Assembly: GCF_020253525.1 (NCBI RefSeq)
Contig: NZ_JADCBK010000060.1
Location: 1 to 50,661 of the forward strand
Direction: 5' to 3'
Source: Aquidulcibacter sp.
GTDB taxonomy: Bacteria; Pseudomonadota; Alphaproteobacteria; Caulobacterales; Aquidulcibacteraceae
DNA length: 50,661 nucleotides
Part shown: positions 1,447-19,285 of the stretch, one piece after another
Numbering within the stretch: the first letter of the stretch is position 1
Layout: every line of letters begins with the position of its first letter
Position numbers and translations under genes: made by a program
Notes under the pieces: model-generated
Seen by the model: the letters and a program-made list of their open reading frames with translations, nothing else
What the model was told of the DNA's origin: nothing
Database searches by the model: none

Positions 1447-1497
1447 GGATAAATCGGTCACGGAATAACACCGCGCCATTGGTGCGCGGCCTGCCAT

Positions 1498-1629
1498 ATG
1501 TCCTGCATGCTGCGGCTGACGCTGCTGGCGCCGGATATGGTTGAGGCGAATCTGGACGGGCGGCAGCCGAAGGGGGTGACGCTACCGGGGCTTCTGGAGC
1601 CGTTTCCTGTGGAATGGGGGCAACAGTGA
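1498..1629 (+). pseudogene. Recombinase C-terminal remnant, copy 1
   Basis: A 43-codon frame ending at TGA 1627-1629 reads LRLTLLAPDMVEANLDGRQP and continues GVTLPGLLEPFPVEW. This resembles the extreme C-terminus of large recombinase-family proteins, a recollection of the family rather than a search result. No upstream part of such a gene is present; the frame is cut off towards the IS66 end. The same tail occurs at 5588-5763 in worse condition, and the two copies flank the Gabija-like pair. Confidence 0.6.
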
Positions 1630-1710
1630 AGCCTCATTATACTGCAAAAATGTTTGAGTCGTAGCGGAAGCTAGCTAGCCCTGCAGCAAGCGGAAACGGC
1701 CCGCGCCTGG

Positions 1711-3492
1711 CTAGGCGGGCGCGAGGGGCGGGTACGTGCCAGACGCTCTAATGATCGCGACTCGGCGGCGAGCGCGCGTGATGGCGACACGAAGCAGGCG
1801 GCGGGCATGTGGCGATGGTGGAGGGTCGCGAGCCAAGTCGAAAAAGTGGGACTTGAACTGGCCCTCTACCAGGATAACGCCGTCGAACTCCTTCCCTTTG
1901 GACTTGTGGATGTTCATCACTAGGACGCCCTGCGGTTCCAGTTCGGCAGACATCAGCCGCTCCTGATCGAGGGTCTTCTTAACGAAGGTGGTCGCGCCCT
2001 GGTAGGTTCCCGTGTTGACCCACATGCTCGACAGGCCCCGGCCAAGCGCATCCGCCGCCCGGAACAATCGGACCAGGTGGACTTGTTTCACTACATCTTC
2101 CAGGACGGGGATGGTCGCCAGGACGGCGCGCGCGGCTCGCCAGTCTACCACCGGATCCCCTAGCAAGCCGACACCGACCGCCGCGGCTGCCGAGATTTCC
2201 TTACCGAACTTATTCCGCAATGGGCGCCCCGCGAGCGCTGCCTCAGCGGCCTCGCCAAAGCCCTTTGCGGCGGCCTTGGCTGTCTGCGTGTTGTCGATGG
2301 CTGCCTTAAGCCGGCAATAGGCCGCCGCTGCTTGCATGGTGGCGGCTGCGCTTTCAGCCGGCGGCGTCCTGGGCCATTCCAAAATGGAGGCGAGGACAAC
2401 GGCAGCCGCCGCCGAAAGCTCGGCGTCCCAAACCACCTCGTGACCGACCGGTTTCAGGGTAGACGTCTTGTAGACGTGCTCCTCGCTTAGGATCGTCGAG
2501 ATGTCGGACACTAGGGCGTTGCTCCGGCAAAGGACTGCGATACTAGGATTTTCGATCCCCTGCTTGGCGAGCTGTCCGAACATCCAGATCACAGCGGCAT
2601 GGGTCATTGTCGAGAACATCCGCGGCGGATAATTGATTTGGGCGACTTCCGGACACGGCTTCGGCAAGGCGGTGTCGTGCAGCACGGCGTCCGCAAACTT
2701 GAGGATGCCGCTGTTGGGACTGCGGTGGTTATCACCCGCCAAATCGGTGACCATCGGCTTCAAGAAGGCGATGGCCCTTTCGATCCGTAGTGGGTCCACC
2801 TTAGGCTGGTACTGGAAAATGCTCTGGTCAGGGTCGGCAAGGCAGAAGATGGTCGTGACCTTCGACAGGGCGGCCACGAGCCGCCACTGGTCGTCGTCGG
2901 TGTCCTGGAACTCGTCGACTATGATCAATGGATACTTACGGCCGATCAATCGGCGCAAAGCGGCGCAGCCTTCGATCAGGTCTGCCGCCGCGCCGGCGAA
3001 CTGGTCGAAGCCGAAAACGGCCTGTTCGCGGGCTAGGCGCCCCGCCTCGTCGGCCCAGTCACCGTCGAACGCCGCCTTCTGAAGGCGTTCTTCATCCGGG
3101 TAGCGGATCGAGGTAGGTTTTCCGGTCAGCAGCCGCCCATGCGACTTCAGCAGCTCGAGACAGAACGAGTGGTAGGTCTGGACTTCGATCTGCTTTCGCT
3201 CCGCCGCCTTGAGGATCGTTTTGCATCGGACCAAGACAGCGCGCACGGCCGCTCTGGAGAAGCTCAGGAAGAGCACCTCCTGGGCAGCTCCGAGCGTCGA
3301 CAGCAACGCCTGGGCCTTGAGAAGCGCGATCGTTGTCTTGCCAGCACCTGGCCCTCCCTTCACCAGGAGATGCCCTTCAGCGGCCAGTATCGACACCCGC
3401 TTGGCATCCAGCTCCAGCTTCAGGTGACATCTCCGAACAGCATGTTCAACCCGCCCTGCCGGCGTCGCCCTCGTCCGGCGGCGCCAAGGCAT
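1711..3492 (-). CDS. gajB: UvrD/PcrA-like superfamily 1 helicase, GajB-like
   Basis: This is an SF1 DNA helicase, probably the GajB partner of the OLD nuclease just upstream. Visible motifs, in order: Walker A GGPGAGKTT, a DEFQDT Walker B/motif II, DPDQSIFQY (motif III), NIHKSKGKEFDGVILVE (motif V) and RVAITRARRR (motif VI). At about 590 residues it is somewhat longer than the founding GajB. The start is uncertain. The in-frame ATG at 3492 overlaps the nuclease gene by 47 bases. The ATG at 3443, better placed for coupling, reads only seven codons to a TGA; one extra base near 3425 would join it to the helicase frame. In Gabija, GajB acts with GajA after nucleotide depletion during phage infection; that role is inferred here from the gene pairing. 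Confidence 0.85.
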   Translation of the reverse strand: MPWRRRTRATPAGRVEHAVRRCHLKLELDAKRVSILAAEGHLLVKGGPGAGKTTIALLKAQALLSTLGAAQEVLFLSFSRAAVRAVLVRCKTILKAAERKQIEVQTYHSFCLELLKSHGRLLTGKPTSIRYPDEERLQKAAFDGDWADEAGRLAREQAVFGFDQFAGAAADLIEGCAALRRLIGRKYPLIIVDEFQDTDDDQWRLVAALSKVTTIFCLADPDQSIFQYQPKVDPLRIERAIAFLKPMVTDLAGDNHRSPNSGILKFADAVLHDTALPKPCPEVAQINYPPRMFSTMTHAAVIWMFGQLAKQGIENPSIAVLCRSNALVSDISTILSEEHVYKTSTLKPVGHEVVWDAELSAAAAVVLASILEWPRTPPAESAAATMQAAAAYCRLKAAIDNTQTAKAAAKGFGEAAEAALAGRPLRNKFGKEISAAAAVGVGLLGDPVVDWRAARAVLATIPVLEDVVKQVHLVRLFRAADALGRGLSSMWVNTGTYQGATTFVKKTLDQERLMSAELEPQGVLVMNIHKSKGKEFDGVILVEGQFKSHFFDLARDPPPSPHARRLLRVAITRARRRVAIIRASGTYPPLAPA

Positions 3493-5275
3493 TGTGAATG
3501 GCTTCCAATATATCGCGGATCGTCTTGGGAAGCTGGTCCGCGGTTTCACACGCGCGAACGAAGATCGCAGCGTAGCCGAATGCATCACCCTTCCGGGCTC
3601 TCAGCACGTCCAGCGCGAGGTCCTTGGCCTTGGCGGCCGTGTCAACCAGCGCGTCATACTTCCCGAGGGCCGTCGGGTAATCAGAGCGACCCTCGACCTC
3701 GGTTAGGAAGCGCACGTGCACGGCGCTTGCCGTTTCCTCCACCAGAAGCGCTTCGATCCCCTTGTGCGGCAGGGTCCAGTGCTGTGTATAGTCGCCCAAC
3801 TGCGCGATAGCGTCGACGGTCAATGGCTTGTTGGGCTTGTCGCAAACGCCGAAGACCGGCTTTCCCATGGCTTTGAACACAGGCCCGTACTTCGGGACAG
3901 CGGTCTCGCTCCCTGCATTGAATAGGCTGACGCCGGCAAGATCGAAGTGGGCGTAGGCGTCGGCGCCCAATGAGGTTTCCATGATCGTGGACGCCTCCGC
4001 GAAGAGCGCGGTTTCCGTCGATCCCTCCACCACGAGGACGGCGCGGCTGAGAATGGATTCGGCGAACTGACGGCGTTCTGTCTTGAAGGTCTTTGGTTTA
4101 AATGTCCCCAGGTTGATGGGGGCGCCGGTCAGCGCGCCATCGTTTTGCCGGTCGAGGATCACGACGTCCTTTGGCTCGAACTGCTCAATGACATAGGGCG
4201 AATGGGAAGTGACGATGGCCTGTCCCATCTCGGCTAGTACGAACTGGCTTACCCGCCGCTGCGTGTGGGGCGGCAGGGCAATCTCGGGCTCCTCCATGGC
4301 GAAGATCACGGAGCCCTTCTCCTTGAGTTCGGCGATCACCGTGAGAAGCGCGAACACCAGCAGGTTGACGGACCCGGTGCCGAGCCGCGCAAACGGCACC
4401 GCGTAGCCGATCGGCTCGGCCGCGATAAAGAGCTTCACCACCTCGCGGAGGTTCTCGCGCGTCAGCTCCGAGGCGAAGAAGCTGGTCGCATCTTCACCGG
4501 GCGCGAGATTCACAAATCGCGCCATCCGCCTGCGGATGTCTGCCCGTACCTGCTTCAGCTGGGCGACTTCTCCGATGGAGGGTTTCAGGTCCTGCAGGCG
4601 GTCGAGCGTGTCCTGCCACATATCGGCGAGGCCTGTGCCGCCCAGGCGGAGGACGGTGTCCAAGAGAGAGCCTCGCTGCAGGCTGAGAGCGCGGGAACCG
4701 GTCCGGAGGGTACGAAGGAACACAAAGCCACATAGCCGCTTATGCTCCCGACCGAAGATCCGGCGCCCGGTGCCCAGCGCGACCTCCATGGTCTCATCAT
4801 CGTCGTCAGGCGGCTCGATGGGATGGTCGAAGAAGGTGTTGCCGACAAAGTCATCCTCGTCCTTGTCATATCGGCCGAGAAAGACCAAGGGCAGAGCCCA
4901 AGTGATTAGCGGCCCGTCACCGGTCACAGGGCCCCCATCGCCCTCGTCAGCAAAGTCGCTCTTGGAGATGTCCCAGCGGCGCAGGTGGCGAAAGAATCGC
5001 AGTTCCGCCTCCGGCGACAGGTCGGTCAAGACCGCCTCGATGCGGATCACTATTGGGGTGCCGTCCTTGCCCTTGTAACGCCCGCAGTGGAAGTCGTGTT
5101 CATCGACAACCGGGCGCCGATACAGCCGCTCCGGCCCCAGAACGAGATCAAGTGCCTCGCAGACAGTGGACTTGCCGACGTTGTTCCCACCAACCAACAG
5201 GGTATGCCCAGAGAAGTTGACCGTACCCTGGGCGATCCCACGGAAGTTCGAAATGATAAGCCTCTTAACCTTCAC
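3446..5275 (-). CDS. gajA: OLD-family ATP-dependent endonuclease, GajA-like
   Basis: This is an ATPase-TOPRIM nuclease of the overcoming-lysogenization-defect family. Residues 29-37 (GGNNVGKST) form Walker A, residues about 324-330 (IFAMEEP) Walker B, and TSHSPYVIE (356-364) the following switch region. The C-terminal half carries TOPRIM signatures: LVVEGSTE at 414-421 and GVCDKPN near 476-482, supplying the metal-binding Glu and Asp. The 609-residue length and the adjacent UvrD-like helicase on the same strand fit the class 2 OLD/Gabija arrangement. The start is GTG at 5275, preceded by a purine-rich AGGGGGA stretch; the stop lies inside the helicase frame, so the two are co-transcribed. As a defence nuclease it would cut phage DNA in the cytoplasm (inference). 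Confidence 0.88.
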   Translation of the reverse strand: MKVKRLIISNFRGIAQGTVNFSGHTLLVGGNNVGKSTVCEALDLVLGPERLYRRPVVDEHDFHCGRYKGKDGTPIVIRIEAVLTDLSPEAELRFFRHLRRWDISKSDFADEGDGGPVTGDGPLITWALPLVFLGRYDKDEDDFVGNTFFDHPIEPPDDDDETMEVALGTGRRIFGREHKRLCGFVFLRTLRTGSRALSLQRGSLLDTVLRLGGTGLADMWQDTLDRLQDLKPSIGEVAQLKQVRADIRRRMARFVNLAPGEDATSFFASELTRENLREVVKLFIAAEPIGYAVPFARLGTGSVNLLVFALLTVIAELKEKGSVIFAMEEPEIALPPHTQRRVSQFVLAEMGQAIVTSHSPYVIEQFEPKDVVILDRQNDGALTGAPINLGTFKPKTFKTERRQFAESILSRAVLVVEGSTETALFAEASTIMETSLGADAYAHFDLAGVSLFNAGSETAVPKYGPVFKAMGKPVFGVCDKPNKPLTVDAIAQLGDYTQHWTLPHKGIEALLVEETASAVHVRFLTEVEGRSDYPTALGKYDALVDTAAKAKDLALDVLRARKGDAFGYAAIFVRACETADQLPKTIRDILEAIHNALAPPDEGDAGRAG

Positions 5276-6089
5276 CCCACCGTCCCCCTACCCCCGCCGC
5301 GTGGGAACATCGCACACTGGAACAATTCCGTCGATCTAAACGGGTGGTTATTGGCCGCGCATTGATCAGCATGGTGAATCGGAGGCCGCCCCTCCCTGAT
5401 AGAGATCAGCCGAATGACAGTTATCTGAGTTCGCTCTTCGGAAAGCTGCCAGGCAGGTATCGGCCAGTTGCTGCCGGCCAAAACGAAGCCGCAACCGTCC
5501 CATGACATCAGGCGCGGCTCGAGCGATGGGAGTGCGACGGCGCGAGACGGGCCGCTTCGGCACGATCAACGAAATGGCGGCGGGGAGAACATCATCTTGT
5601 CCTATGTCTCGCGACTGCCCCGCCTGACGCTGCGGCGCAGGGCGTGGTCGAGGCGATCCTGGACGGGCAGCAGCCGGAGGGGGTGACGCTGCCGGCTCTG
5701 CTGGAAGGGGTGCCGGTAGGGTGGGGGGGGCAGGAACCGCCCAACCGTCTGAACCGATGCTAACCCTAGGCGCACCTCGCCGAGCATACCGTCTGCTGCT
5801 ACATTGAAAAACTGCCGATCGGGTACCCAGGAACAATGATGGCAAAAATTACACTCTTTTCATGATCACGCCTCCTCAGCAGAATGACGCTCGAGATTGC
5901 ATGCCGTCTCAAGCCAGTAGGGGCGGTGATTCCTGGAGGCCATCTTGATCTTAGGACCTGCAAGGGACTGTTCGAACAAACTGCTGACGTTGGAGAGCAT
6001 CCAGGCTGGACACTTCGCCTGCCGAACGGTTTTAACCCAGATGAAGGCCCGAACCATCTCCTGTTCGCGCCTTGCGGCAGACTTTTGAC
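5276..6089. other. Intergenic region between divergent defence units
   Basis: This 814-base gap separates the minus-strand nuclease-helicase pair from the plus-strand SNF2 operon and must hold both promoters. Apart from the decayed recombinase tail at 5588-5763 I see no convincing gene; the open frames on both strands here lack recognisable motifs. No clear sigma-70 promoter pair could be assigned by eye. Confidence 0.6.
5588..5763 (+). pseudogene. Recombinase C-terminal remnant, copy 2 (frameshifted)
   Basis: The segment first reads NIILSYVSRLPRLTL, then must change frame near 5632-5640 to continue as AQGVVEAILDGQQPEGVTLP and end at TAA 5761-5763. It matches the tail at 1498-1629 almost residue for residue (LRLTL, VEA-LDG-QP-GVTLP-LLE). 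The frameshift shows that it is a relic. Its position just upstream of the nuclease gene makes it the second bracket around the Gabija-like pair. Confidence 0.6.
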
Positions 6090-8981
6090 ATGATCGTATC
6101 CGACTATCATGCCAAATACTTTGCCGAGGACCTCTCACGCCGTGCCCCAAGCGGCATGGATCGTCTGTCAGCGGCCCTATTCGATGCTGCGGTTGACCTC
6201 AACCCGCATCAGATTGAAGCCGCGCTCTTTGCACTGCGCTCACCGCTCTCCAAAGGCGTGATGCTTGCTGACGAGGTCGGCCTGGGTAAGACGATCGAGG
6301 CGGGGATCGTACTGTGCCAGCTTTGGGCCGAACGCCGCCGCAGGCTTCTGGTAATTTGCCCAGCCTCCATCCGCAAGCAATGGGCGCTCGAACTCCAGGA
6401 GAAGTTCAACCTCCCAGCCGTGGTTCTCGACGCGCGCTCATGGGGCGATGCCACGCGCTTGGGCCAGGACCCCCTTACGCAGCCCGCCGTTCTGGTCATG
6501 TCCTACCACTTCGCCAATAGCCAACGGGACGCCCTGAAAAGAATCGCCTGGGACATCGTCGTCATCGACGAAGCCCATAAGCTGAGGAACGCCTATCGGC
6601 CCAGCAACAAGGTAGGCCAGGGAATCCGCTGGGCTACGGAAGACTGCCGCAAGGTCCTGCTGACCGCGACGCCCCTGCAGAACTCCCTCCTGGAACTGTA
6701 TGGCCTCAGCACACTGATCGACGAGCAGATGTTCGGCGATGCCGATGCCTTTCGGTCCCAATACGCCACGGCGGGCGGCGATCTTGCTGGCCTACGGCAG
6801 CGCCTCGCCGCTTTCTGCAAGCGAACCCTTCGCAAGCAGGTGACCGAGTACGTCCGCTACACAGAACGGCGCACCATCACCCGGCCCTTTCACCCGAACG
6901 ACGCGGAGCAGGCCCTCTACGAGGCGATTTCGAGTTTCCTTCAACGGGAGGACAGCTATGCCCTTCCGCGACGCCAGCGCCATCTGACAACACTCATCCT
7001 ACGAAAGCTTCTCGCCTCCTCCTCAATCGCCATCGCAGCTACGCTCGACGCACTTCGCCTCCGGCTTGAGGAATTACGAGACCAGAAGACTGGCAATGAT
7101 GAGGAACTAGCCGCACGGATCATCGAGGACGAAGAGCTCGAACCCGAACTTCTCGATGAAATCCTTGATGAAAATGACAGCGAAGGTGGCGCCGAGGCAG
7201 ATGCGCCTCAGACAATCAACCATGCTGTACTGAAGGAAGAAATAGCGATCCTCGCCGCACTCGCTGATCGGGCACGGCAAGTCGGCGTGGATACCAAATC
7301 GCAGACGCTGCTTCAGGCATTGGAGCTTGGCTTCACGGAAATGGAGAAAACCGGCGCCGCACAGAAGGCACTCATTTTCACAGAGTCCAGGCGCACACAA
7401 GAATATCTAAAAGGCTTCCTCGAAGCCCATGGGTACTCGGGCCAGGTCGTGCTCTTTAACGGCACAAATGGCGGGCCGGAAGCGCACGCAATCTATGAGG
7501 AATGGGTCGCCCGCAACCGGGACTCAGGCCGTGTATCCGGCTCTCGCGCAGTCGACTCCCGTACCGCACTGGCGGAGCATTTCCGCGACGGAGCGCAAAT
7601 CATGCTGGCCACAGAAGCAGCAGCCGAAGGCATAAACCTTCAGTTCTGCTCCCTGGTCATCAACTACGATCTGCCCTGGAACCCGCAACGTATCGAACAG
7701 CGCATTGGCCGCTGCCACCGCTATGGTCAGAAGCACGACGTAGTCGTCATCAACTTCCTCAACGAACGCAACGCGGCCGACAAGCGTGTGCTGGAGCTAC
7801 TGACCGAGAAATTCAGCCTGTTCAACGGTATCTTCGGCGCCTCCGACGAAATCCTGGGCTCGATTGAGTCCGGGGTGGATTTCGAAAAACGCATCCTGGC
7901 CATCTACCAGCAATGCAGAACGCCCGATGAAATTGACACTGCGTTCCGCGCACTTCAGGCGGAGCTTGACGAGCAGATCCGCACCCGCCTGGCTGACACG
8001 CGCAAGGCGCTGCTCGAAAACTTTGATGAAGATGTGCATGAACGCCTGCGCGTGCGGCTTGCCGACACCCAGGCAACCTTGGATCGCGTCAGCCGCCGCT
8101 TCTGGGCAGTTACGCAGCACATGCTGGCGGCCATGGCGACTTTTGATGAAAGCACCCTGGCATTCGACCTGCACGCCCCGCCAACACCCCAAATCTCCCT
8201 CGGGCGCTATCACCTTATCTCCAAGACGCGCCCGCAGGCGCCGGGCGGAGAAACTGAGGAGATCAGCCAGTTCCTCTACCGCCTGTCGCATCCCCTCGGC
8301 CAGCACGTCATTGATACTGCCAAGGCCCTGCCCACACCCCCCGCCGAGATCGTCTTCGACATATCCGGTCACCCCGCCCGCCTCTCGGTCATTGAGGCGC
8401 TGAAGGGCAAGGCAGGCTGGCTAACGTTGCGGCGCCTTGGCATCGAAAGCTATGAACGAGAGGAGCACCTGCTCTGTTCGGGCTTCGCCGAAAACGGACT
8501 GGCACTCGATCAGGAAACGATGGAACGGCTATTCCTCTGTGCCGCTAAACAGGTCCGCCCGCGGGCGGTGCCGCCTGACGTCCAAGAACGCTTGCATGCC
8601 GAAGCGGAAAGGCACGCCCAGGCCACCATAAGTCGATCCCTGGAAACCAATAATCGTCACTTCCAGGAAGCCCGAGAAAAGCTGGAACGCTGGGCCGACG
8701 ACATGGTGCTGGCCGCCGAAAAAGCGCTGGCCGATACGAAGGAACAGCTTAAGGTTCTGCACCGCCAATCCCGCCAGGCCCCAACCCTGGAAGAACAAAA
8801 GCAGCTACAGGATAAGATCCGCCGCTTGGAACAGCAGCAACGCCGCCAGCGTCAGGAAATCTTCCAGGTTGAGGATGAAATCATGGCCAAGCGAGATGCC
8901 CTGATTGATCAGCTTGAAAGGCGCCTGGCCCAGCGCACGGAAGCCGAGACCCTGTTTACGATCCGCTGGGTGGTCCTGTAA
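6090..8981 (+). CDS. SNF2/HepA-like superfamily 2 helicase (first gene of SNF2-Mod-Res operon)
   Basis: This is a large SF2 ATPase of the SNF2/RapA (HepA) type, about 963 residues. Walker A lies in DEVGLGKT at 61-68, motif II is DEAH at 160-163, motif III is LLTATPLQN, and the second RecA lobe ends with NPQRIEQRIGRCHRYGQ near 530-545. The last about 130 residues are a charged coiled coil rich in Glu, Lys and Gln. The ATG at 6090 is chosen over a TTG at 6072; neither has a strong ribosome binding site. The next gene begins 32 bases downstream behind AAGGAAG. The protein probably remodels or translocates on DNA for the methyltransferase-nuclease pair encoded with it. It resembles the DrmD helicase of class 1 DISARM, but the DISARM core genes are absent. 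Confidence 0.85.
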   Translation: MIVSDYHAKYFAEDLSRRAPSGMDRLSAALFDAAVDLNPHQIEAALFALRSPLSKGVMLADEVGLGKTIEAGIVLCQLWAERRRRLLVICPASIRKQWALELQEKFNLPAVVLDARSWGDATRLGQDPLTQPAVLVMSYHFANSQRDALKRIAWDIVVIDEAHKLRNAYRPSNKVGQGIRWATEDCRKVLLTATPLQNSLLELYGLSTLIDEQMFGDADAFRSQYATAGGDLAGLRQRLAAFCKRTLRKQVTEYVRYTERRTITRPFHPNDAEQALYEAISSFLQREDSYALPRRQRHLTTLILRKLLASSSIAIAATLDALRLRLEELRDQKTGNDEELAARIIEDEELEPELLDEILDENDSEGGAEADAPQTINHAVLKEEIAILAALADRARQVGVDTKSQTLLQALELGFTEMEKTGAAQKALIFTESRRTQEYLKGFLEAHGYSGQVVLFNGTNGGPEAHAIYEEWVARNRDSGRVSGSRAVDSRTALAEHFRDGAQIMLATEAAAEGINLQFCSLVINYDLPWNPQRIEQRIGRCHRYGQKHDVVVINFLNERNAADKRVLELLTEKFSLFNGIFGASDEILGSIESGVDFEKRILAIYQQCRTPDEIDTAFRALQAELDEQIRTRLADTRKALLENFDEDVHERLRVRLADTQATLDRVSRRFWAVTQHMLAAMATFDESTLAFDLHAPPTPQISLGRYHLISKTRPQAPGGETEEISQFLYRLSHPLGQHVIDTAKALPTPPAEIVFDISGHPARLSVIEALKGKAGWLTLRRLGIESYEREEHLLCSGFAENGLALDQETMERLFLCAAKQVRPRAVPPDVQERLHAEAERHAQATISRSLETNNRHFQEAREKLERWADDMVLAAEKALADTKEQLKVLHRQSRQAPTLEEQKQLQDKIRRLEQQQRRQRQEIFQVEDEIMAKRDALIDQLERRLAQRTEAETLFTIRWVVL

Positions 8982-9013
8982 TCACGCCGGATGACACCAA
9001 GGAAGCAAGAAAA

Positions 9014-12000
9014 ATGAGCAATTTCGATACCCTGGTCGCCAAGCTGCGCGAGATTTTCCAGATTGATCGCCCCGACCTTGATTTTGGTGTCTACCGTATC
9101 CTGAATGCCCGGGCGGGCGAGATTGAGGAATACCTATCCAACCGCCTGAAGGCGCGTGTGGCTGAGGCACTAGCCGCCGGGGCTGCCGCGAATATCGAAG
9201 CTTTGCGAGCCGAACTGACCAAATCCATAAAGCAGTTCGAGGACCTGGGTGAAATTCCTGACGACAAGAAAAGGGTGAAAGATCTGCGCGCCGCGCTTGC
9301 CGCCGCCAGCGCAGGGGCATCTGAACATGAGAACCAGGTATCTTCCCACCTGCTGACGTTTTTCTCCCGTTACTTTGATAAAGGGGACTTCATCAGCCAG
9401 CGCCGCTACAAGGGCGACACCTACGCAATTCCCTATTCAGGGGAAGAAGTGGTTCTCCATTGGGCTAACCGCGACCAATATTACACCAAATCTGGCGAGT
9501 CCTTTTCCAATTTTAGCTTCAAGCTGGAAGACGGCCGTGCTGTTCACTTCCGCCTTGTCGCCGCCGATACGGCCAAGGACAACCGCAAGGATAATGACAA
9601 GGAACGCCGCTTTGTGCTGGCGACCGCGCGGACAATCACCCGCACGGATGAAGATGGCGAGACCTTTGAGGAAACCATCCAGCCCGTGACCGAGGAAGAT
9701 GGCGCACTGGTGATCCGGTTCGATTATGCCCCGCAGCCGAAAGGCACCAAGCAAGAAGCGCTGGTTGATCAGGCGGTAGCGGCGATTCTGGCCGATGATG
9801 CGGTCAAGGCGCGCTGGTTGGCGCTCACCACCCGCGCCCCGACAGAAAAGAACCCCCAGCGCACACTGCTGGAAAAGCACCTGAAGACCTATACCGAGAA
9901 AAACACCGCAGACTACTTCATCCATAAGGATTTGGGCGGCTTCCTGCGCCGCGAATTGGATTTTTATATCAAGAGTGAGGTGATGAACCTGGATGATGTG
10001 CAGGGGGCCGAAGCCTTCGCTGATATCGAACGCAACCTGCGGATGATCCAATGCTTGCGCGCCATTGCGCTGGACTTGATCACCTTCCTTGCTAGCATTG
10101 AGAATTTCCAGAAGAAGCTTTGGTTGAAGAAGAAATTCGTCGTCGCAGCGCATTATTGTGTGACGCTAGATAGAGTTCCGGAAGCGCTTTACCCCGCCAT
10201 CATGGCGAACCCCGCACAATGGGCGCAGTGGCATGAAATGGGCATGCGTTCTAGCGCCGCGTTGGGAACGGTCGAGGAACTGAAGGCCGCGCCCTTTTTG
10301 ATGGTGGACACGGCGCTGTTTGATGCAGGGTTCCGCGCTGATTTGTTGAAAGCTATTCCTGACCTGGATGCCAGCCTAGACGGGCTGCTACTACATGGGG
10401 AGAATTTTCAGGCGCTAACGCTGTTGATGCAGCGGTATCGGGAGCAAGTAAAATGTGTCTACATGGACCCGCCCTACAACATCGGAAAGAACGACTTCAC
10501 CTATAAGGACGCTTACAAGCATTCCAGCTGGGCAGCCATGCTGTTTGATCGACTAACACTGGCAATGCATCTATTGCGACGGGACGGCATACTGTCGATG
10601 TATATTGACGAGAACGAACACTATAATGCTGCGCTGGTTCTTTCCGCAGTCTTTGGAAAAGAGAACCGTGCTGGGGATATCATCTGGAAGAACTCTAGCA
10701 AGAACGACCAGTCCTACGTTTCGATGCAGCATGAGTACCTGATGACGGCTGTCGTTGACAAGAACGTAAACAAAGGTAACTGGACCGAAAAGAAGGAAGG
10801 CTTGGATGAAATATATGCAGCCTTTGCTAAACTGAGGAAGGAGCACGGAACCGATTGGAAGGCCATCCACGCCGCCGCACTGAAATGGTACGCAACGTTT
10901 CCGGACTCAAATCCGATACGGGATAGCAAACACTATAGCTGGATGGATGAGCGCGGAGTGTACTTCCCAGATAATATTTCAGGGCCAAACTTCGGACAGT
11001 ATAGGTATGACGTAATTCATCCCATGACCGGGCGAGTTTGCAAAGAACCGTCCAGCGGATGGCGATATCCTGAAGAGACGATGCTTCAGAGAATTAAGGA
11101 TGGCCTCGTTCATTTTGGAGACGATGAGACCACGGTTCCGAACAACAAGACCTACTTAAAAAACACCGAGTTTCAGAGCCTTACAAGCATCAAGTATCGG
11201 GATGGTCGTGTGGCGAGCAAAACACTTGCCAGTCTGTTTGGTGGTAAGGCGTTCACCAACCCAAAGGACTACGAGCTGTCATCTCGTTTCTTAAAGGCAT
11301 TCGAGACAGACAGAGAAATCATCGTTGACCATTTTGCGGGTACTGGGACAACCGGCCATGCTATCCTGCACTTGGCCCGCAATTCCTCTGAGAAACGACG
11401 TTACATTCTGGTTGAACAAGGCGACTACTTCGATACTGTGCTGAAACCGCGCATGATGAAGGTTGTCTATTCCGCTGATTGGTCCGAAGGTAAACCAACC
11501 GCTCCCGAAACAGGGATCAGCCATGCCTTTAAGGTACTCAAGATCGAGGGCTATGAGGATAGTCTGAACAACCTCGAGCTGAAACGATCAGACGCGCAGG
11601 CTAATCTGCTCAATGAACTCAGCGAAGCCGCCCGCGATGATTACCTGATGCGTTATATGCTGGATGTTGAGGCGAAGGGTTCGCTTCTGTCTGTCTCAGA
11701 TTTCCAGAAGCCCTTTGACTATACGCTCAAAATCGCCATTGACAGCGCCGGTGCCTGGGAAGAGCGCAAGGTGGATCTGGTCGAAACCTTCAACTATCTA
11801 ATCGGCCTCACTGTTCGCCATATTGATATCCAGGCCAGGCAGGGCTTCGTGACGGTAGAAGGCTGGCTGCCGACCGGCGAAAAAACCCTGATCCTTTGGC
11901 GCGACTGTGAGAAACTCGGTTACGAAGAACTCACGCGTCTCTGCGACAAGCTGAAGATAAACCCGGCCGACAGCGAATTTGATGTGGTCTACATCAATGG

Positions 12001-12124
12001 CGACCACAACATCCCCTCCGTAGTGGAAACTACTGAGGAGGAAGGCAGTCTGGTGAAGAAGCTGATGCTGCGCCAGATCGAACCCGCCTTCCTGGATGCA
12101 ATGTTCAATGTGGATGATGTCTAA
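9014..12124 (+). CDS. mod: Type III-like N6-adenine DNA methyltransferase (Mod) with long N-terminal extension
   Basis: This is a site-specific adenine DNA methyltransferase. The catalytic DPPYN (residues 485-489) precedes the AdoMet-binding FAGTG (774-778), which is the beta-class order used by type III Mod proteins. The roughly 285 residues between them would hold the target-recognition region. At 1036 residues it is far longer than the usual 600-700: about 450 residues precede the conserved LLHGENFQAL block, with no motif I recognise. A good AAGGAAG site sits about 8 bases before the ATG. Its TAA shares its last base with the ATG of the next gene (TAATG), so translation is coupled. It would modify host DNA and guide the Res subunit; the recognition sequence cannot be read from the protein by eye. 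Confidence 0.9.
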   Translation: MSNFDTLVAKLREIFQIDRPDLDFGVYRILNARAGEIEEYLSNRLKARVAEALAAGAAANIEALRAELTKSIKQFEDLGEIPDDKKRVKDLRAALAAASAGASEHENQVSSHLLTFFSRYFDKGDFISQRRYKGDTYAIPYSGEEVVLHWANRDQYYTKSGESFSNFSFKLEDGRAVHFRLVAADTAKDNRKDNDKERRFVLATARTITRTDEDGETFEETIQPVTEEDGALVIRFDYAPQPKGTKQEALVDQAVAAILADDAVKARWLALTTRAPTEKNPQRTLLEKHLKTYTEKNTADYFIHKDLGGFLRRELDFYIKSEVMNLDDVQGAEAFADIERNLRMIQCLRAIALDLITFLASIENFQKKLWLKKKFVVAAHYCVTLDRVPEALYPAIMANPAQWAQWHEMGMRSSAALGTVEELKAAPFLMVDTALFDAGFRADLLKAIPDLDASLDGLLLHGENFQALTLLMQRYREQVKCVYMDPPYNIGKNDFTYKDAYKHSSWAAMLFDRLTLAMHLLRRDGILSMYIDENEHYNAALVLSAVFGKENRAGDIIWKNSSKNDQSYVSMQHEYLMTAVVDKNVNKGNWTEKKEGLDEIYAAFAKLRKEHGTDWKAIHAAALKWYATFPDSNPIRDSKHYSWMDERGVYFPDNISGPNFGQYRYDVIHPMTGRVCKEPSSGWRYPEETMLQRIKDGLVHFGDDETTVPNNKTYLKNTEFQSLTSIKYRDGRVASKTLASLFGGKAFTNPKDYELSSRFLKAFETDREIIVDHFAGTGTTGHAILHLARNSSEKRRYILVEQGDYFDTVLKPRMMKVVYSADWSEGKPTAPETGISHAFKVLKIEGYEDSLNNLELKRSDAQANLLNELSEAARDDYLMRYMLDVEAKGSLLSVSDFQKPFDYTLKIAIDSAGAWEERKVDLVETFNYLIGLTVRHIDIQARQGFVTVEGWLPTGEKTLILWRDCEKLGYEELTRLCDKLKINPADSEFDVVYINGDHNIPSVVETTEEEGSLVKKLMLRQIEPAFLDAMFNVDDV

Positions 12125-15100
12125 TGGCGCGCGCCCCGAAGAAAAAGCGCACCTTCCATCAGGAATTGGTATTGAACCGATGGATGCTAAGCCATTTCCA
12201 CGGCGACGGCCTGATGACGCTGAAATCTCGTTTAGGCGAAGACCGGCACGAAGGCATTGACGATGACGGCCAGACAAAATTCTTCCATGAACTGACGCGC
12301 AGCCTTTTCAACATGGATCGGATCAATGAGGCCGATCTGCGTCGTTATGACCTTAACATCGTAGGGCATTGGCAGAAGATCACCCATCGCCGCAACGCCG
12401 CCACCGGCGAAGTGCTGACGATGAAATACTTCCAATACCTCTCCCTTCTGTTCACGGAAATCTACCTCGACTGGTATTTCAACCATCGGCAGGACCTACT
12501 GGATGGTTTGAATCAACAAATGACGGCCTATCGGGCAGAGGATGGGGCCGAACCGTTCAAGGACTACACCGCCGAAGACCTGAACAAGCTGGCCTTCTGG
12601 AACGCCACAGGCAGCGGCAAAACGCTAATCCTGCACATCAACATCCTACAATACCTGCACTACTTCCAGGCGGGAAATCCGAATCTATTCCCCGACAGGA
12701 TCATCCTGCTGACACCAAATGAAGGTCTGTCGCGCCAGCATCTGGATGAATTCCATCAATCCGGCATCAACGCCCATGCCTTTGACAAAAACCAGGCCGG
12801 TTCGCTGTTCAAGGGTTGGGTGGATGTGATCGAGGTCACGAAGCTGGCCAATGAGATGGGCGACAAGACTGTCTCGACCGAGGCCTTTGAAGGCAATAAC
12901 CTTGTCCTGGTTGACGAAGGCCACCGCGGCACCGGCAGCGCGGGCGGCGTCTGGATGGCACGGCGTGCTGCGCTGGTGAAGGGTGGCTTTGCCTTTGAAT
13001 ATAGCGCCACCTTCAGCCAGTCCGTGGCCAAGGGTTCCACTGTCGCCAAGGCTGAGGATGATATCCTGAAGGCCAAGGCAAGGCGCCTTTTTGACAAGAC
13101 ACTGAAGCAGCTGGATTCCACGGAACGCGCACAACTGCAGCTGACAACAGAAGAACGCGCCCGCGCCCGGATTGATGGCATCCGGGAAGCTTATGCCAAG
13201 GCCGTGCTGATTGATTACAGCTATAAGTATTTCTACGCCGATGGTTACGGGAAGGAGTCCCTGATCCTGAACCTTGACGACAAAGGTTATGACAAGGATG
13301 GGGATCTGTATTTCACGGCCTGCCTGCTCAGCTTCTATCAGCAGCTCTGGCTTTGGGATTCGCACCGCGACAAGATCAGGGATTTCAATATCGAGAAACC
13401 CCTCTGGGTGTTTGTCGGCAATACCGTTGCGGGCGAGGATAGTGATATCCTTGAAGTTATCAGATTTCTGGCTTGGTTCCTGAACCATCCAAAGGAAGCC
13501 ACCACCTGGATTGCAGACCTTGTAGCGGACAAGGCCCGGCTGCTGGATTCGAAGGGCAACGATATCTTCGCCAAGCGCTTTACGCCCCTTATTCAGCGAG
13601 ACGCGCTCACGATCTATGACGATATTCTGAAACGGCTGTTCAACGCGGATGCTCGGCAACGGCTGAAGCTGGTGAACCTGCGCAACAGCAAGGGTGAACT
13701 TGCCCTGCGGGTGGGGGCCTTCGACCCCTTCGGCCTGATCAACATCGGTGACGATTCCGGCTTCTTCAAAAACGCGGAAGACAGCACTGACTTTGACACC
13801 GAGGCAGATGATTTCGGTACGGGGCTTTTCGGAACAATCAACAACAAGGACAGCAAGCTGAATGTCCTTATTGGATCGCGAAAGTTCACCGAAGGCTGGT
13901 CAAGCTGGCGGGTATCAACCATGGGCCTGCTCAATATGGGCCAGGGGGAAGGGTCCCAGATCATTCAGCTTTTCGGTCGCGGCGTACGCCTGAAAGGGCG
14001 CGGCATGTCGCTCAAGCGCTCGCTGCCTGCTGAAAGGCCGAAGGGTACGCATATGGAACGCCTGGAGACACTGAATATCTTCGGCGTTCGGGCAAACTAT
14101 ATGGCCACCTTCAAGGATTATCTGAAAGAGGAAGGCATTACACCAAGCGATGAAATCATAGCGCTCGATTTCCCGACAAAGACCAACCTACCTTCTGGCA
14201 CCAGATTAAAGACCCTGAAGCTGAAGGACGGTTACAAGGATAATCAGATCAAGGGCTTCAAGCGTATCCACTTCCCGACACTTTATGAAATTCCAGCGGA
14301 GTTTGCTGGTAAGGTTAAGCCGCCTCATGTTGTGCTAGATCTCTACCCACGCGTGGAGGCTCTCTCGACTACGGCAGTCAAAGAAAGTAGCGCGCCCGAC
14401 AAACGCTATCGCGGTAAGCTGAGCAAGAAGGCAATCGCGTGCTTTGATTGGGACACGGTCTTCAATGCCGTGCAAGAATATAAGCTGCTGAAAAGCTGGA
14501 GCAACCTGAAGGTAGACCGAAACCGCCTTGCCGAGTTTTGCCTCGGCAATGATGGTTGGTACACGCTTTTCGTACCTCAGGAAGAATTGAAGGTGGAAGG
14601 GTTCGCTGATGTGCAGCGCCAGCAGAAAGTGATGGTGCAGCTGCTTACTGATTATACGGATCGCTTCTACCAGGGCCTAAAAGCCGCCTATGAAGGCCAG
14701 TTCTATGATGTCGCGCCAGTCGTGGAAGATTCAGGTTCGATCATCAAATTGTATCAATTCGAAATAGAAAACACCGACGATGGGCTCGAGTACAAGGAGA
14801 GGCTCGAGGTCCTGAGGGGCATTGTCGAATCTGGGAAGCTTGGCGAGGCGAGCAAGTGGAACGCCCCACATATGGTTGCGATCAGCTTCGGCCAGCATTT
14901 GTACTATCCCCTGCTCTCGCCGATTAAAGACGCTATCGTCCCCCTGAAGATGCGGCCCCTCGCCATCGGAGACCCGAGCGAGGTCCGGTTTGTCCAAGAC
15001 CTGGAGGCATTTTATGAGTCCCCCGCGGGCAAAGAAGCCCTGGGAGGTTTAAGCCTTTATCTGCTGCGTAACGCGGATAATCGGGCCAAGGGGCTCGGCT

Positions 15101-15441
15101 TCGCATTAGCTGGAAACTTCTACCCCGACTTTCTTCTCTGGCTTGTTGACGATGAATCTGGAAAGCAGTGGCTTTCATTCGTTGATCCAAAGGGAATAAG
15201 GAATCTGAATTTGTCGGATCCGAAGTTCGGCCTGTATCGTGAAATCAAACAGATTGAGGCGCAGTTGGCCGACAAAGCCATCAGCTTGAGTGCCTTCATC
15301 TTGTCGATCACCAGCTTCCACGATTTGATCAATTTGCCCCGGACGACAACGAAATCTGACCTTGAGGAGCGCAATGTACTATTTATGGACGACGGCGGCC
15401 CATCCTACCTCCGCCAGCTCATAACCAAAGCCCGCGCGTGA
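12124..15441 (+). CDS. res: Type III restriction-like helicase-nuclease (Res)
   Basis: This is an SF2 helicase with a C-terminal PD-(D/E)XK-type nuclease, the restriction partner of the preceding Mod. ATGSGKT at 161-167 is Walker A, DEGH at 264-267 motif II, YSAT motif III and QLFGRGVRL at 615-623 motif VI. Near the C-terminus YPDF (PD at 1001-1002) is followed 19 residues later by VDPKG (D1021, K1023), giving the metal-binding acids and lysine of the nuclease. The length of 1105 residues is slightly above the usual Res. It begins on the last base of the mod stop codon. By analogy with type III enzymes it would translocate along DNA and cut unmodified sites in a Mod-Res complex; the attached SNF2 protein is an unusual third component. 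Confidence 0.88.
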   Translation: MARAPKKKRTFHQELVLNRWMLSHFHGDGLMTLKSRLGEDRHEGIDDDGQTKFFHELTRSLFNMDRINEADLRRYDLNIVGHWQKITHRRNAATGEVLTMKYFQYLSLLFTEIYLDWYFNHRQDLLDGLNQQMTAYRAEDGAEPFKDYTAEDLNKLAFWNATGSGKTLILHINILQYLHYFQAGNPNLFPDRIILLTPNEGLSRQHLDEFHQSGINAHAFDKNQAGSLFKGWVDVIEVTKLANEMGDKTVSTEAFEGNNLVLVDEGHRGTGSAGGVWMARRAALVKGGFAFEYSATFSQSVAKGSTVAKAEDDILKAKARRLFDKTLKQLDSTERAQLQLTTEERARARIDGIREAYAKAVLIDYSYKYFYADGYGKESLILNLDDKGYDKDGDLYFTACLLSFYQQLWLWDSHRDKIRDFNIEKPLWVFVGNTVAGEDSDILEVIRFLAWFLNHPKEATTWIADLVADKARLLDSKGNDIFAKRFTPLIQRDALTIYDDILKRLFNADARQRLKLVNLRNSKGELALRVGAFDPFGLINIGDDSGFFKNAEDSTDFDTEADDFGTGLFGTINNKDSKLNVLIGSRKFTEGWSSWRVSTMGLLNMGQGEGSQIIQLFGRGVRLKGRGMSLKRSLPAERPKGTHMERLETLNIFGVRANYMATFKDYLKEEGITPSDEIIALDFPTKTNLPSGTRLKTLKLKDGYKDNQIKGFKRIHFPTLYEIPAEFAGKVKPPHVVLDLYPRVEALSTTAVKESSAPDKRYRGKLSKKAIACFDWDTVFNAVQEYKLLKSWSNLKVDRNRLAEFCLGNDGWYTLFVPQEELKVEGFADVQRQQKVMVQLLTDYTDRFYQGLKAAYEGQFYDVAPVVEDSGSIIKLYQFEIENTDDGLEYKERLEVLRGIVESGKLGEASKWNAPHMVAISFGQHLYYPLLSPIKDAIVPLKMRPLAIGDPSEVRFVQDLEAFYESPAGKEALGGLSLYLLRNADNRAKGLGFALAGNFYPDFLLWLVDDESGKQWLSFVDPKGIRNLNLSDPKFGLYREIKQIEAQLADKAISLSAFILSITSFHDLINLPRTTTKSDLEERNVLFMDDGGPSYLRQLITKARA

Positions 15442-15631: not shown

Positions 15632-16047
15632 TCTGTTTCGAGTAGGGGCACCTCAGATACCGCCCGAATTGCGGCGCTAGTGCGAGTTGGCCCCGTGAAC
15701 TGTGTACACAAATACGCAGTTATCTTCACCTGATTGGCGATGGAGCGCCGCGGGAGCGAGCACCCGAAGAGACATAATTCTCATGAATTCCAATTGCTTG
15801 GTCGCCGTCAACAGCAAGCCGTGGGCATTTTTATCGATCTAAACCAGCGCATTAGCGGGCCGACTTTTGTACACGAATTTACTGCCTCGTTGGCCGCCAA
15901 AATTTATTGAGACCATTATCATATTTTTCTTGACAACATTCCTGGTTTGTGGCAGCCAAATAGCGTGGGAATGATCCCACAAAGGCGGCCGCCGAGGTGC
16001 TTCCAACACCCCGACGGCCTAACCCAAAACACAGGAGTATCAGTCCT
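15632..16047. other. Intergenic region with palindromes and an AT-rich stretch
   Basis: No intact gene is seen. A minus-strand frame interrupted by one stop (reading KNAHGLLLTATKQLEF around 15780-15830) may be a gene relic, but I cannot name it. A perfect TGTGTACACA palindrome lies at 15701-15710 and a second TGTACA at 15867-15872. The stretch 15897-15950 is AT-rich and contains TTGACA at 15930-15935, a good -35-like hexamer without an obvious -10 at the right spacing. Confidence 0.5.
15965..15980 (+). promoter_or_regulatory. Inverted repeat upstream of the GIY-YIG gene
   Basis: GTGGGA, a 4-base spacer and TCCCAC form a perfect inverted repeat about 67 bases before the nuclease start and about 30 bases after the TTGACA hexamer. 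It could be an operator or a leader hairpin; its placement near the presumed transcription start suggests regulation of the nuclease gene. Confidence 0.4.
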
Positions 16048-17448
16048 ATGTCTCAGGCTAATCACGAGCCTAGCTCTATTTTGCCCGCGGCGGAACGCCG
16101 CATCATCCCATTCCCGCGGCGCCACCCACGACGGCCGGATGCCCCGATTGTTTCCGTTCCGGAAGCCAGCGCGCACGTCCTGCCGAAGGTTGCCGCAGCG
16201 GGAGGCGGCGATGGTGATGATAGCCGTGGCAAAAGGCGCAAGAGAGCGCGTCTGCAACTTGTCAAAACCGATCAACTGCCATCACCTGAGCAGGTCTTCA
16301 TTATTTATCAAATCCGAAGACGTTCTGATGGCCGAAGCTATGTTGGTGTTACGCAACGTAGCTTGGAAACACGCTTTCGCTTCCATCAATATGATGCGCA
16401 TCGCAGAAGTAAAAAGCTGAGGGCTGGTGGATTGGCGTCGGCAATCAGGGAAGCTACCCAGCGTAATGTTGCGATCCACGAAGAATTCGAGATAACCAAG
16501 ATCGACGGTTGCTCGACGCCCCGAGAGGCTAGAAAACTCGAGCAGGACTGGATCGAGCGCTTGCAAACAAGGGCGCCCAACGGGTTCAATTTGCAACCTG
16601 GTGGCGCAAGCTTAGGCGGCCCAGCCAATGGAAGACCGATTACGCTACGGATCGACGGACAAAGAGCGCGTCGATTTCCCTCGATTATGGCCGCACTTAA
16701 CAGGGTAAATGCGTGGCGCATGCGCCAAGGAAAATCGCCGCTGGCATTTCCAACCGTGCGAGTGCGGCTCGAGTTAGGCCAGACTCCACGGCAAGCTTTC
16801 GAATTTGAAGAGCGGGTCGATAGAAGGCAGCTACGTGCAACGCCAATCGAGGTTGCAGGCAAGGAGTTCTATTCTTTGTCGAAAGCAGCGAAGGAGCATT
16901 GCATATCTCACACCGCGTTGAAGGGGCGTCTTTGGCGCGCTTCTCGCGCGGGTCTTGGTTCTGCCTGCCTGACTGAAGATCGGCGGCTGCCAGGCTCAGC
17001 AAGGCAGAATGGCGTCAAGACAGGACGCCTGCCACCATTCGAATTGCCTCATCCAACCAAATCAAATGAGGTTGTATCCGCTGCTGACTTTGCGAAGCTA
17101 ACCGGCTTGCCAAAGGCAACGGTAACGTATCGCTATCAAAAAATGCGCCATGAAGAAGGTGATCAACTTTCTTCACTAGGGCGTGATGAGATTATTGCGC
17201 GTCTCTTGGACGGAACAGAGAGGCGCATTCAAATCTCATTGCCGCTACCCGATGGGCGCGCATTGCACGGTGGCGTCAGGGAATTGATTCGGAAAGTACT
17301 TTCGGATCCTGATCTACGCACGATGCGAAGCGAAGATATCGGTTTGAGTGGCATTCGGAAGCGGCTACGCCAGATTGAAAGTTGGCCAACGCCTCCAGCG
17401 CCGAAAATTGTTGCGAAAGCCTTCGGCTTTGGTGACGCGGAGGTCTGA
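16048..17448 (+). CDS. GIY-YIG nuclease with NUMOD-like DNA-binding repeats
   Basis: This 466-residue protein looks like a homing-endonuclease-type GIY-YIG enzyme. After a disordered basic N-terminus, the domain begins with IYQI near 86 and SYVGVT near 98-103, followed by an Arg/His-rich helix. The likely catalytic Glu is in LEQDWIERL near 165, and the domain closes with FNLQPGG. The rest is probably DNA binding: KEFYSLSKAAKEHCISHTAL near 272-291 resembles NUMOD1 helices, and SAADFAKLTGLPKATVTYRY near 344-363 resembles a helix-turn-helix. The ATG at 16048 is chosen because AGGAG lies about 10 bases upstream; an upstream in-frame ATG at 15997 lacks such a site. There is no intron around it, so it is either a free-standing mobile endonuclease or a defence nuclease. 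Confidence 0.75.
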   Translation: MSQANHEPSSILPAAERRIIPFPRRHPRRPDAPIVSVPEASAHVLPKVAAAGGGDGDDSRGKRRKRARLQLVKTDQLPSPEQVFIIYQIRRRSDGRSYVGVTQRSLETRFRFHQYDAHRRSKKLRAGGLASAIREATQRNVAIHEEFEITKIDGCSTPREARKLEQDWIERLQTRAPNGFNLQPGGASLGGPANGRPITLRIDGQRARRFPSIMAALNRVNAWRMRQGKSPLAFPTVRVRLELGQTPRQAFEFEERVDRRQLRATPIEVAGKEFYSLSKAAKEHCISHTALKGRLWRASRAGLGSACLTEDRRLPGSARQNGVKTGRLPPFELPHPTKSNEVVSAADFAKLTGLPKATVTYRYQKMRHEEGDQLSSLGRDEIIARLLDGTERRIQISLPLPDGRALHGGVRELIRKVLSDPDLRTMRSEDIGLSGIRKRLRQIESWPTPPAPKIVAKAFGFGDAEV

Positions 17449-17959: not shown

Positions 17960-18021
17960 GGCTTCGAAGGTATGACCCTCACCTATACTGACAAAAACTG
18001 GGCTTGAGAGAGGTTTGGGAT

Positions 18022-18768
18022 ATGAGAATTCTTGTGCGCGCGCTTCTGCTCGCCTGCGCGACCATCGCAGTGCCATCTGCCCATGCACAGGGTGACATGC
18101 AGCCGATTGGCCGCTTTGCGATTGATCGCACGGAGGTTTCAGTCGCTGCCTTTCGCCGCTTTGTAGCCGCCACGGGCATGGTGACCATGGCTGAGCGCCA
18201 GGGCGGCGGTTCAGTGTTCGAGGCGGGCTGGGTGCGCAAGCCTGGCTGGACGTGGCGCACGCCCTTCGGTGAGCCCGCTGATGAGCGTGAGCCCGCGGTG
18301 CACATCACCTTTGACGAAGCAGCTGCCTATTGCCGATGGGCTGGCAAGCGCCTGCCGACGGATGCGGAATGGCTGGAAGCCGCGCATACGGAAAGGCGGG
18401 CGTCGCCTACACCGCCGTTCCAGACTGGCGCAACCTATCCCTATCCCAGTGGCGAACGCCCGACAGGCGCGAATTGTCTGCATGATTGCGGGCTGACACC
18501 TTTCGCATTGGACCGTTCGGTCAAGCTCAATCGTGGCATCGGCCCCGCACGCGTTGGCACAACGCAGGCCGGGGTGAATGGGCTTTACGACATGGGGGCC
18601 AATGTCTGGGAATGTGTGGATAGGGCGCAGGGGAATGAACGCATCACGCGCGGCGGATCCTGGTGGTATGGCGCGGCGCAGATGCGCAACGACCATCGCG
18701 CCAGTAAGCCTCCGGAAACTGCGGTGGTCTATATCGGGTTTCGTTGTGCACAGGATCGGAGGTCCTGA
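18022..18768 (+). CDS. Exported formylglycine-generating-enzyme (SUMF1)-like protein
   Basis: The protein starts with a classic signal peptide (MRILVRALLLACATIAVPSA, cleavage probably after AHA), then runs through an FGE-sulfatase domain: DRTEVSVAAFRRFV, the HITFDEAAAYCRWAGKRLPT block with TDAEWLEAA, GLYDMGANVWECV, RGGSWW and the C-terminal GFRCA. The 248 residues are complete for the short form. True FGEs convert a sulfatase cysteine to formylglycine, but many members of this fold are binding or maturation proteins. No sulfatase is encoded nearby, so the substrate is unknown. An AGAGAGG site precedes the ATG at 18022. The next gene starts one base after the stop, so the two exported proteins form an operon. 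Confidence 0.85.
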   Translation: MRILVRALLLACATIAVPSAHAQGDMQPIGRFAIDRTEVSVAAFRRFVAATGMVTMAERQGGGSVFEAGWVRKPGWTWRTPFGEPADEREPAVHITFDEAAAYCRWAGKRLPTDAEWLEAAHTERRASPTPPFQTGATYPYPSGERPTGANCLHDCGLTPFALDRSVKLNRGIGPARVGTTQAGVNGLYDMGANVWECVDRAQGNERITRGGSWWYGAAQMRNDHRASKPPETAVVYIGFRCAQDRRS

Positions 18769-18769
18769 A

Positions 18770-19285
18770 GTGACAAATCCATACGCTGCATTCGCTATTG
18801 CGCTGCTTGCTGTTGGCTTTGTCGCTGCCGCTGAAGCCAAGCGCATGGATCCTGTGTTGCTGCAGGGCAAAGCGCGGGCGATTGATGGCGATACGCTCCA
18901 GGTGGGCGATACGCGGCTGCGGTTGCACGGCATTGATGCACCTGAGTTGCGGCAAACCTGCGAGGACAGCGCTGGCGAAGTCTGGGCTTGCGGGCGCCGT
19001 GCCGCATCCGAATTAGCAGCTGCAGTCGCCGGTGGCGAAATTCACTGCATCAGCCTCGAGCGGGATCGTTATCAGCGCCTTGTAGCGACCTGCTGGGCAG
19101 GCGGTCGGGATGTCGGGCAGTCACTTGTCGCGCATGGCTGGGCTGTCGCGTATCGGCGCTTTTCGGTGGATTATGTGAGCGAGGAGAATCTCGCACGCTA
19201 TCTCACGCATGGGATGAGGGCGGGACGGTTTGAGATGCCCTGGGACTGGCGTCAGGGAAGGCGGAGGCAGGAGGCAAGTCGCTAA
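18770..19285 (+). CDS. Exported thermonuclease (staphylococcal nuclease-like)
   Basis: A signal peptide or anchor (about residues 1-25) precedes an SNase domain. The visible catalytic set is DGDT, the Arg and Glu in LRLHGIDAPE, and the later Arg in ERDRYQRLVA, corresponding to the residues that bind calcium and phosphate in micrococcal nuclease. AHGWAVAYRRFS closes the fold. The start is a GTG at 18770 with GGAGGT upstream; a longer frame upstream overlaps the previous gene and is unlikely to be translated. The roughly 171-residue product would degrade DNA or RNA outside the cytoplasm. Its coupling to the FGE-like gene suggests a shared exported function, which the sequence does not define. 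Confidence 0.88.
   Translation: MTNPYAAFAIALLAVGFVAAAEAKRMDPVLLQGKARAIDGDTLQVGDTRLRLHGIDAPELRQTCEDSAGEVWACGRRAASELAAAVAGGEIHCISLERDRYQRLVATCWAGGRDVGQSLVAHGWAVAYRRFSVDYVSEENLARYLTHGMRAGRFEMPWDWRQGRRRQEASR

Follow-up and report, generated by a model that had tools for sequence, protein, structure and literature searches.

In the window (the whole 50,661-nucleotide stretch analysed, an entire contig, C125, of a 3.49-Mb draft genome), a predicted anti-phage gene pair, matched by PADLOC to the Gabija system, lies between two 3' relics of one kind of gene. The relics, here called tails, both lie on the plus strand and derive from the small gene of a prophage integration module, and the arrangement of the pair between two tails of the same type agrees with what an earlier note had described. 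We consider it fairly probable that it arose by serial integration of serine-recombinase elements, each at the small-gene end of an earlier element, so that the tails would be scars and Gabija one stranded unit of cargo.

Gabija genes and their borders

The GajA-type OLD nuclease gene (3446-5275, minus strand; PADLOC GajA, E 1.2e-223) encodes 609 aa with ATPase and TOPRIM parts (Pfam AAA_15 and OLD-like_TOPRIM). It is adjoined on the same strand, across a gap of 50 bp, by a GajB-type UvrD helicase gene (1711-3396, minus strand; PADLOC GajB, E 1.7e-185). GajB measures 561 aa if its start is the one matching that in Falsiroseomonas tokyonensis (locus L064); a longer ORF opens at 3588. An OLD-family ATPase/TOPRIM nuclease beside a UvrD-like helicase is also the composition of known Gabija, from which the window proteins showed no notable difference: the new feature is the borders.

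Tail 1 (1497-1626, plus strand, stop codon at 1627-1629) was matched by a profile of the small gene of a DUF2924-serine recombinase-small gene module (nhmmer, E 8e-39). Its homology to intact small genes begins only at 1497, and its end at 1618-1626 (NNNNNNCAG) forms the left junction with the Gabija block. An IS66 transposase gene, open at the contig start (2-1411, plus strand; Pfam PF03050, E 2e-87), ends 85 bp before tail 1, and the IS66 element, lying with its end sequences directly to the left, probably removed the 5' part of this tail. Tail 2 (5511-5733, plus strand; nhmmer E 3e-45, profile positions 196-404) begins at about 5511-5544, earlier than the note had placed it. It carries a one-base deletion, and thus a frameshift, near 5633, and its right junction lies at about 5731-5733. 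The profile start at 196 is identical to that of the tail in F. tokyonensis, placing the 5' truncation at the same point in both.

Both relics end in the peptide LDGxQPxGVTLP...W. The note had proposed aligning them as DNA; in direct orientation they aligned without gaps at 77% identity over 94 bp. A whole-genome search with tail 1 recovered tail 2 at E 1.1e-17 and yielded no copies besides these two, which indicates that the pairing is not due to chance. No tails were found in eight genomes of the same genus at the threshold applied.

The note had also proposed that Gabija was inserted at a recombinase gene's end and that this duplicated the gene's tail. Two direct relics flanking the pair are what such an event would leave, but a target-site duplication should give nearly identical flanking repeats, and over their last 110 bp the tails share 75.7% identity, the level of random tail pairs from different genomes (mean 77.0%). 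Each tail also has closer relatives outside the window than the other tail, those of tail 1 being at L047 and L045 (90% over 110 bp). Since the tails are no more alike than random members of the family and differ in their nearest relatives, duplication was rejected, and we give it next to no credence.

Directly to the right of tail 2, the window contains a type III-like restriction system with an extra SNF2 helicase (6072-15441). It comprises an SNF2/DrmD-like helicase (6072-8981, plus strand; PADLOC DrmD, E 8e-197), a type III methyltransferase (9014-12124, plus strand; PADLOC MTase_III, E 0) and a type III restriction subunit (12124-15441, plus strand; REase_III, E 0). We rejected this system as tail-linked cargo: its closest relatives do not lie beside tails, and a weak parallel was seen in L117 only. 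To the right of the type III genes, a GIY-YIG nuclease-domain protein and an FGE-sulfatase protein are encoded at 15997-17448 and 18004-19285, a region that also weakly matched a candidate defence model (SNc+LTD).

Source of the tails

A search of genome contigs with the tail returned more than 500 relatives, and the 80 loci kept were mostly from Roseomonas-like Acetobacteraceae. Where the copy is intact, a small gene (about 125 codons) has the tail as its C-terminus and, in most intact-module loci, starts within the last 4 bases of a recombinase gene of about 450 aa. The recombinase is a large serine recombinase with Resolvase, Recombinase and zinc ribbon domains; Resolvase and Recombinase domains, with or without the zinc ribbon, were found adjoining the small gene in L064, L026 and L013. 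A DUF2924 gene precedes the recombinase in many copies, and the small protein is labelled 'recombinase' in PHROGs. The tails had been read in the note as the C-terminus of the recombinase itself. This holds in more distant relatives, the only ones in which the small gene is fused to the recombinase, but was rejected for the closest relatives, which have a separate, overlapping small gene.

The module belongs to a type used for prophage integration, with relatives in phages AcaML1 and WO. In Acidithiobacillus phage AcaML1 the same gene pair, annotated as large and small recombinase subunits (Gp3/Gp2), overlaps by 4 bp and lies near the prophage end. Wolbachia phage WO has the small part joined to the serine recombinase (gp31) as a fused C-terminus, and the phage record places the prophage 3' boundary directly after the integrase. 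A position at the prophage end was likewise seen in IMG/VR contigs containing the module, 15 of 80 of which end no more than 13 bp from the small gene, and in R. ponticola (Roseomonas), where one module terminates, on the right, a region whose ORFs resemble tape-measure, portal and terminase genes, as recognised by eye, without a profile. Compared with AcaML1 and WO, only the small-gene ends are left in the window, and in the Acetobacteraceae the end of the small gene is itself the boundary, with cargo stacked behind it. No serine recombinase or DUF2924 gene matching the tails was found in the source genome; the DUF2924 search was without matches in control genomes as well.

A recurrent protein of about 414 aa (MARDLKKFVNPKF...) is encoded 1-2 kb upstream of the recombinase, in L064 at 2242-3486 on the minus strand. 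Similar ORFs lie upstream of modules in L042, L084, L118 and L232. The protein matched no Pfam family, and the L042 copy gave a weak PHROG match.

The Gabija block in Falsiroseomonas tokyonensis

The note had suggested a search of related genomes for an uninterrupted recombinase gene. In F. tokyonensis, an intact recombinase and small gene lie to the left of the same Gabija pair, which is followed by the same shortened tail. Positions 1497-5705 of the window correspond to 5893-10107 of L064 at 95.9% DNA identity, with an identical placing of the left junction and unrelated flanks. The two genomes seem to come from different families, of which 60 genomes of one and more than 397 of the other were sampled. 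The presence of a near-identical block in two families indicates that the block was transferred: it reached the window horizontally, as a unit.

Between window and L064, the Gabija coding DNA differs by 2-3%, four-fold sites by 5-6% and intergenic DNA by 8-10%, whereas both tails differ by 16-17%. Because the tails are more divergent than the rest of the block, the comparison suggests that they have traded sequence with other tails.

In about 780 genome searches in two groups, the only further near-complete tail-linked Gabija was that of F. tokyonensis. A general linkage of Gabija to tails was rejected, as a 64% identical GajA elsewhere showed no tail in the stretch examined.

Rows of tails and cargo

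Other cargo between tails of this kind, also sought at the note's suggestion, was found in related genomes. Behind many modules come one or two cargo genes and, after these, a small-gene end that is shortened and stands alone; the cargo between tails included TctC, GDPD, a sulfatase, a DUF262 protein, a PLD-like protein and Gabija. Neighbouring tails often have one to three genes between them, and one contig bears three consecutive tails (L230). Ten related genomes contained 77 tails. Neighbouring tail pairs within 10 kb, counted from tables for 160-odd genomes with one split gene excluded, had the same orientation in 21 of 21 cases. The 5' ends of the tails are scattered over profile positions 64 to 298, and recombinase remnants are still present on some lone tails (L053, L238). 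A unit of TctC and tail occurs at two places with different flanks; one of the TctC tails is a hybrid of two tail types.

Several individual loci were also recorded. A protein of about 540 aa without a Pfam family is the sole cargo between tails in two genomes (L048, 659-2272; L111, 10286-11911). At L249-L251 (G061:C29), two modules with the same orientation are separated by 56.7 kb. The first is followed by a PLD-helicase/methyltransferase/helicase cluster, and the second forms the end of a prophage-like region. At L100 (2800-9903), a module and a lone tail enclose, as cargo, a 2367-aa cadherin/RTX-type protein, which indicates that cargo is not confined to defence.

The boundary at the small-gene end

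Across 95 distinct junctions, conservation remained at about 1 bit per position as far as the TGG of the small-gene end. A CAG follows two free codons past the TGG, with its CA at +7/+8 reaching 1.5 and 2.05 bits, and conservation was down to chance level by about +25. No conserved second half site was found to the right of these junctions beyond the CAG. The stop codon of the small gene is supplied by the flank. Five locus pairs (L052/L067, L081/L082, L055/L061, L050/L058 and L084/L117) have 8-10 kb of upstream DNA in common at 86-94% and nothing downstream; in other pairs the downstream DNA is 88-97% alike and the small genes merely 75-80%. In mosaic pairs, breakpoints are spread from roughly -240 to +170 around the junction; in those with similar downstream DNA the transition extends across some 100-240 bp about it. 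Synonymous-site conservation was raised in the last 40 or so codons of the small gene (for example at a GGG glycine and a TTT phenylalanine). This is consistent with a site acting at the DNA level, but recent tail-tail recombination would give the same result.

Many of the proteins encoded directly downstream (68 proteins right after intact modules or their tails) gave matches to defence profiles. Together they matched 265 PADLOC models, a count of models and not of proteins, compared with 2 matched by 72 upstream proteins. Since the upstream proteins are encoded in DNA of the element itself, the difference is an asymmetry and not a test of genome-wide enrichment. Downstream proteins included type I methyltransferases (6), DrmD-like helicases (5) and type II methyltransferases (5), and Pfam gave the same picture (N6_Mtase 8, HsdM_N 6, SNF2 4, DUF499 3). 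The sharp 3' boundary and the defence genes on its 3' side fit the note's idea that the tails may be attachment-like borders for defence cargo, as judged by comparing sequences.

Origin of the tail-cargo units

In the explanation that we favour, the att site would overlap the small gene at its 3' end, and a serine-recombinase element would integrate at the end of an older element's small gene. Integration there would bring the newcomer's cargo up against the older tail, and the small gene of the newcomer up against the old flank. Later deletion of the recombinase and most of the element would leave older tail, cargo and newer tail, and the window may hold a reduced unit of this kind around Gabija. 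From their sequences, tail ends look like docking sites that could take cargo one piece after another. The window's copy of the system is dead, with tail 1 cut short at the IS66 element, tail 2 frameshifted, and neither a recombinase nor a DUF2924 gene found in the genome. As the genome yielded no matching recombinase, the unit there is stranded. Serial integration followed by recombinase loss explains why the tails have a common direction and are truncated, why the left border is sharp and why the block is found in two families. Several results count against it. Searches yielded neither a left att half common to cargo units nor an unoccupied site that retains both flanks; to the right of the junction, sequence is unconserved, unlike that of usual serine-integrase sites; the spread of mosaic breakpoints also fits homologous recombination between tails; and the closest type III relatives do not adjoin tails, nor did the 64% identical GajA show one in the stretch examined.

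The compact units of one or a few genes, ending 5-100 bp before the next tail, would be accounted for even better if cargo and 3' tail formed a circularising cassette, as in integrons, which the module's recombinase, acting in trans, inserts at the small gene's 3' end, the module being a fixed platform. Each cargo gene, often one for defence, would then come with a shortened 3' part of the small-subunit gene, which the serine recombinase would use as an attachment site for serial insertion. The polarity of the rows, in which tails lie 3' of modules, the occurrence of the Gabija and TctC units each at two places with different flanks, and the hybrid TctC tail all point in this direction. We nevertheless regard both the cassette mechanism and this role of the tails as unlikely: the modules belong to prophages and move themselves, the scattered 5' ends of the tails define no single site, and the recombinase remnants on lone tails are what decay would leave. 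RecA-dependent homologous recombination between dispersed tails, with the recombinase having merely seeded the repeats, predicts the breakpoints spread within tails and the excess divergence of the tails from those of L064. It would not be expected to make cargo abut the very end of the small gene repeatedly in intact modules, or upstream homology stop there, and as the sole mover of cargo it seems improbable to us. Such recombination is a probable contributor to the exchange.

The abundance of tails in some related genomes would favour a chance flanking of Gabija by two independent, decayed prophage ends. This is very hard to reconcile with a genome whose only two tails both flank Gabija, with the same block in another family, and with a clustering of tails in direct orientation far above random; we consider coincidence highly improbable.

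If serial integration is correct, it would provide a concrete route for building defence islands in Acetobacteraceae and their relatives, in which each next piece lands at the end of a gene of the phage integration module itself. It would also bear on the frequent siting of recombinases beside defence genes. Because tails are easy to search for, they could serve as markers for new defence cargo and for dating island growth.

Comparison with known systems

No published account of stacking at a recombinase module's own small gene with defence cargo was found in a literature search of incomplete coverage. Tandem accretion is a feature of the ssrA-specific islands of Dehalococcoides. Those islands target tmRNA, whereas the tail system would target the recombinase operon. 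A paper on site-specific mobilisation of these islands at one target gene covers serine recombinases as well (PMC3146451). The stacking of serine-recombinase islands at a target gene's end is already known from the staphylococcal and enterococcal SCC/ECC elements, in which large serine recombinases insert highly variable cargo, including restriction-modification genes, at a gene's 3' end (PMC6222049). The SCC/ECC target is the host gene rlmH, used by ccr recombinases, whereas here the boundary lies, and insertion appears to be aimed, at the 3' end of the small gene that belongs to the integrase module itself. Rows of tails resemble integron arrays in their one- or two-gene units, the short related sequence at the end of each, the uniform orientation and the adjoining recombinase. 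That recombinase has Resolvase and Recombinase domains, however, and is a serine recombinase, whereas integrons have the tyrosine recombinase IntI beside the array; and the tails are 3' gene fragments of variable length, whereas integrons use attC hairpin sites.
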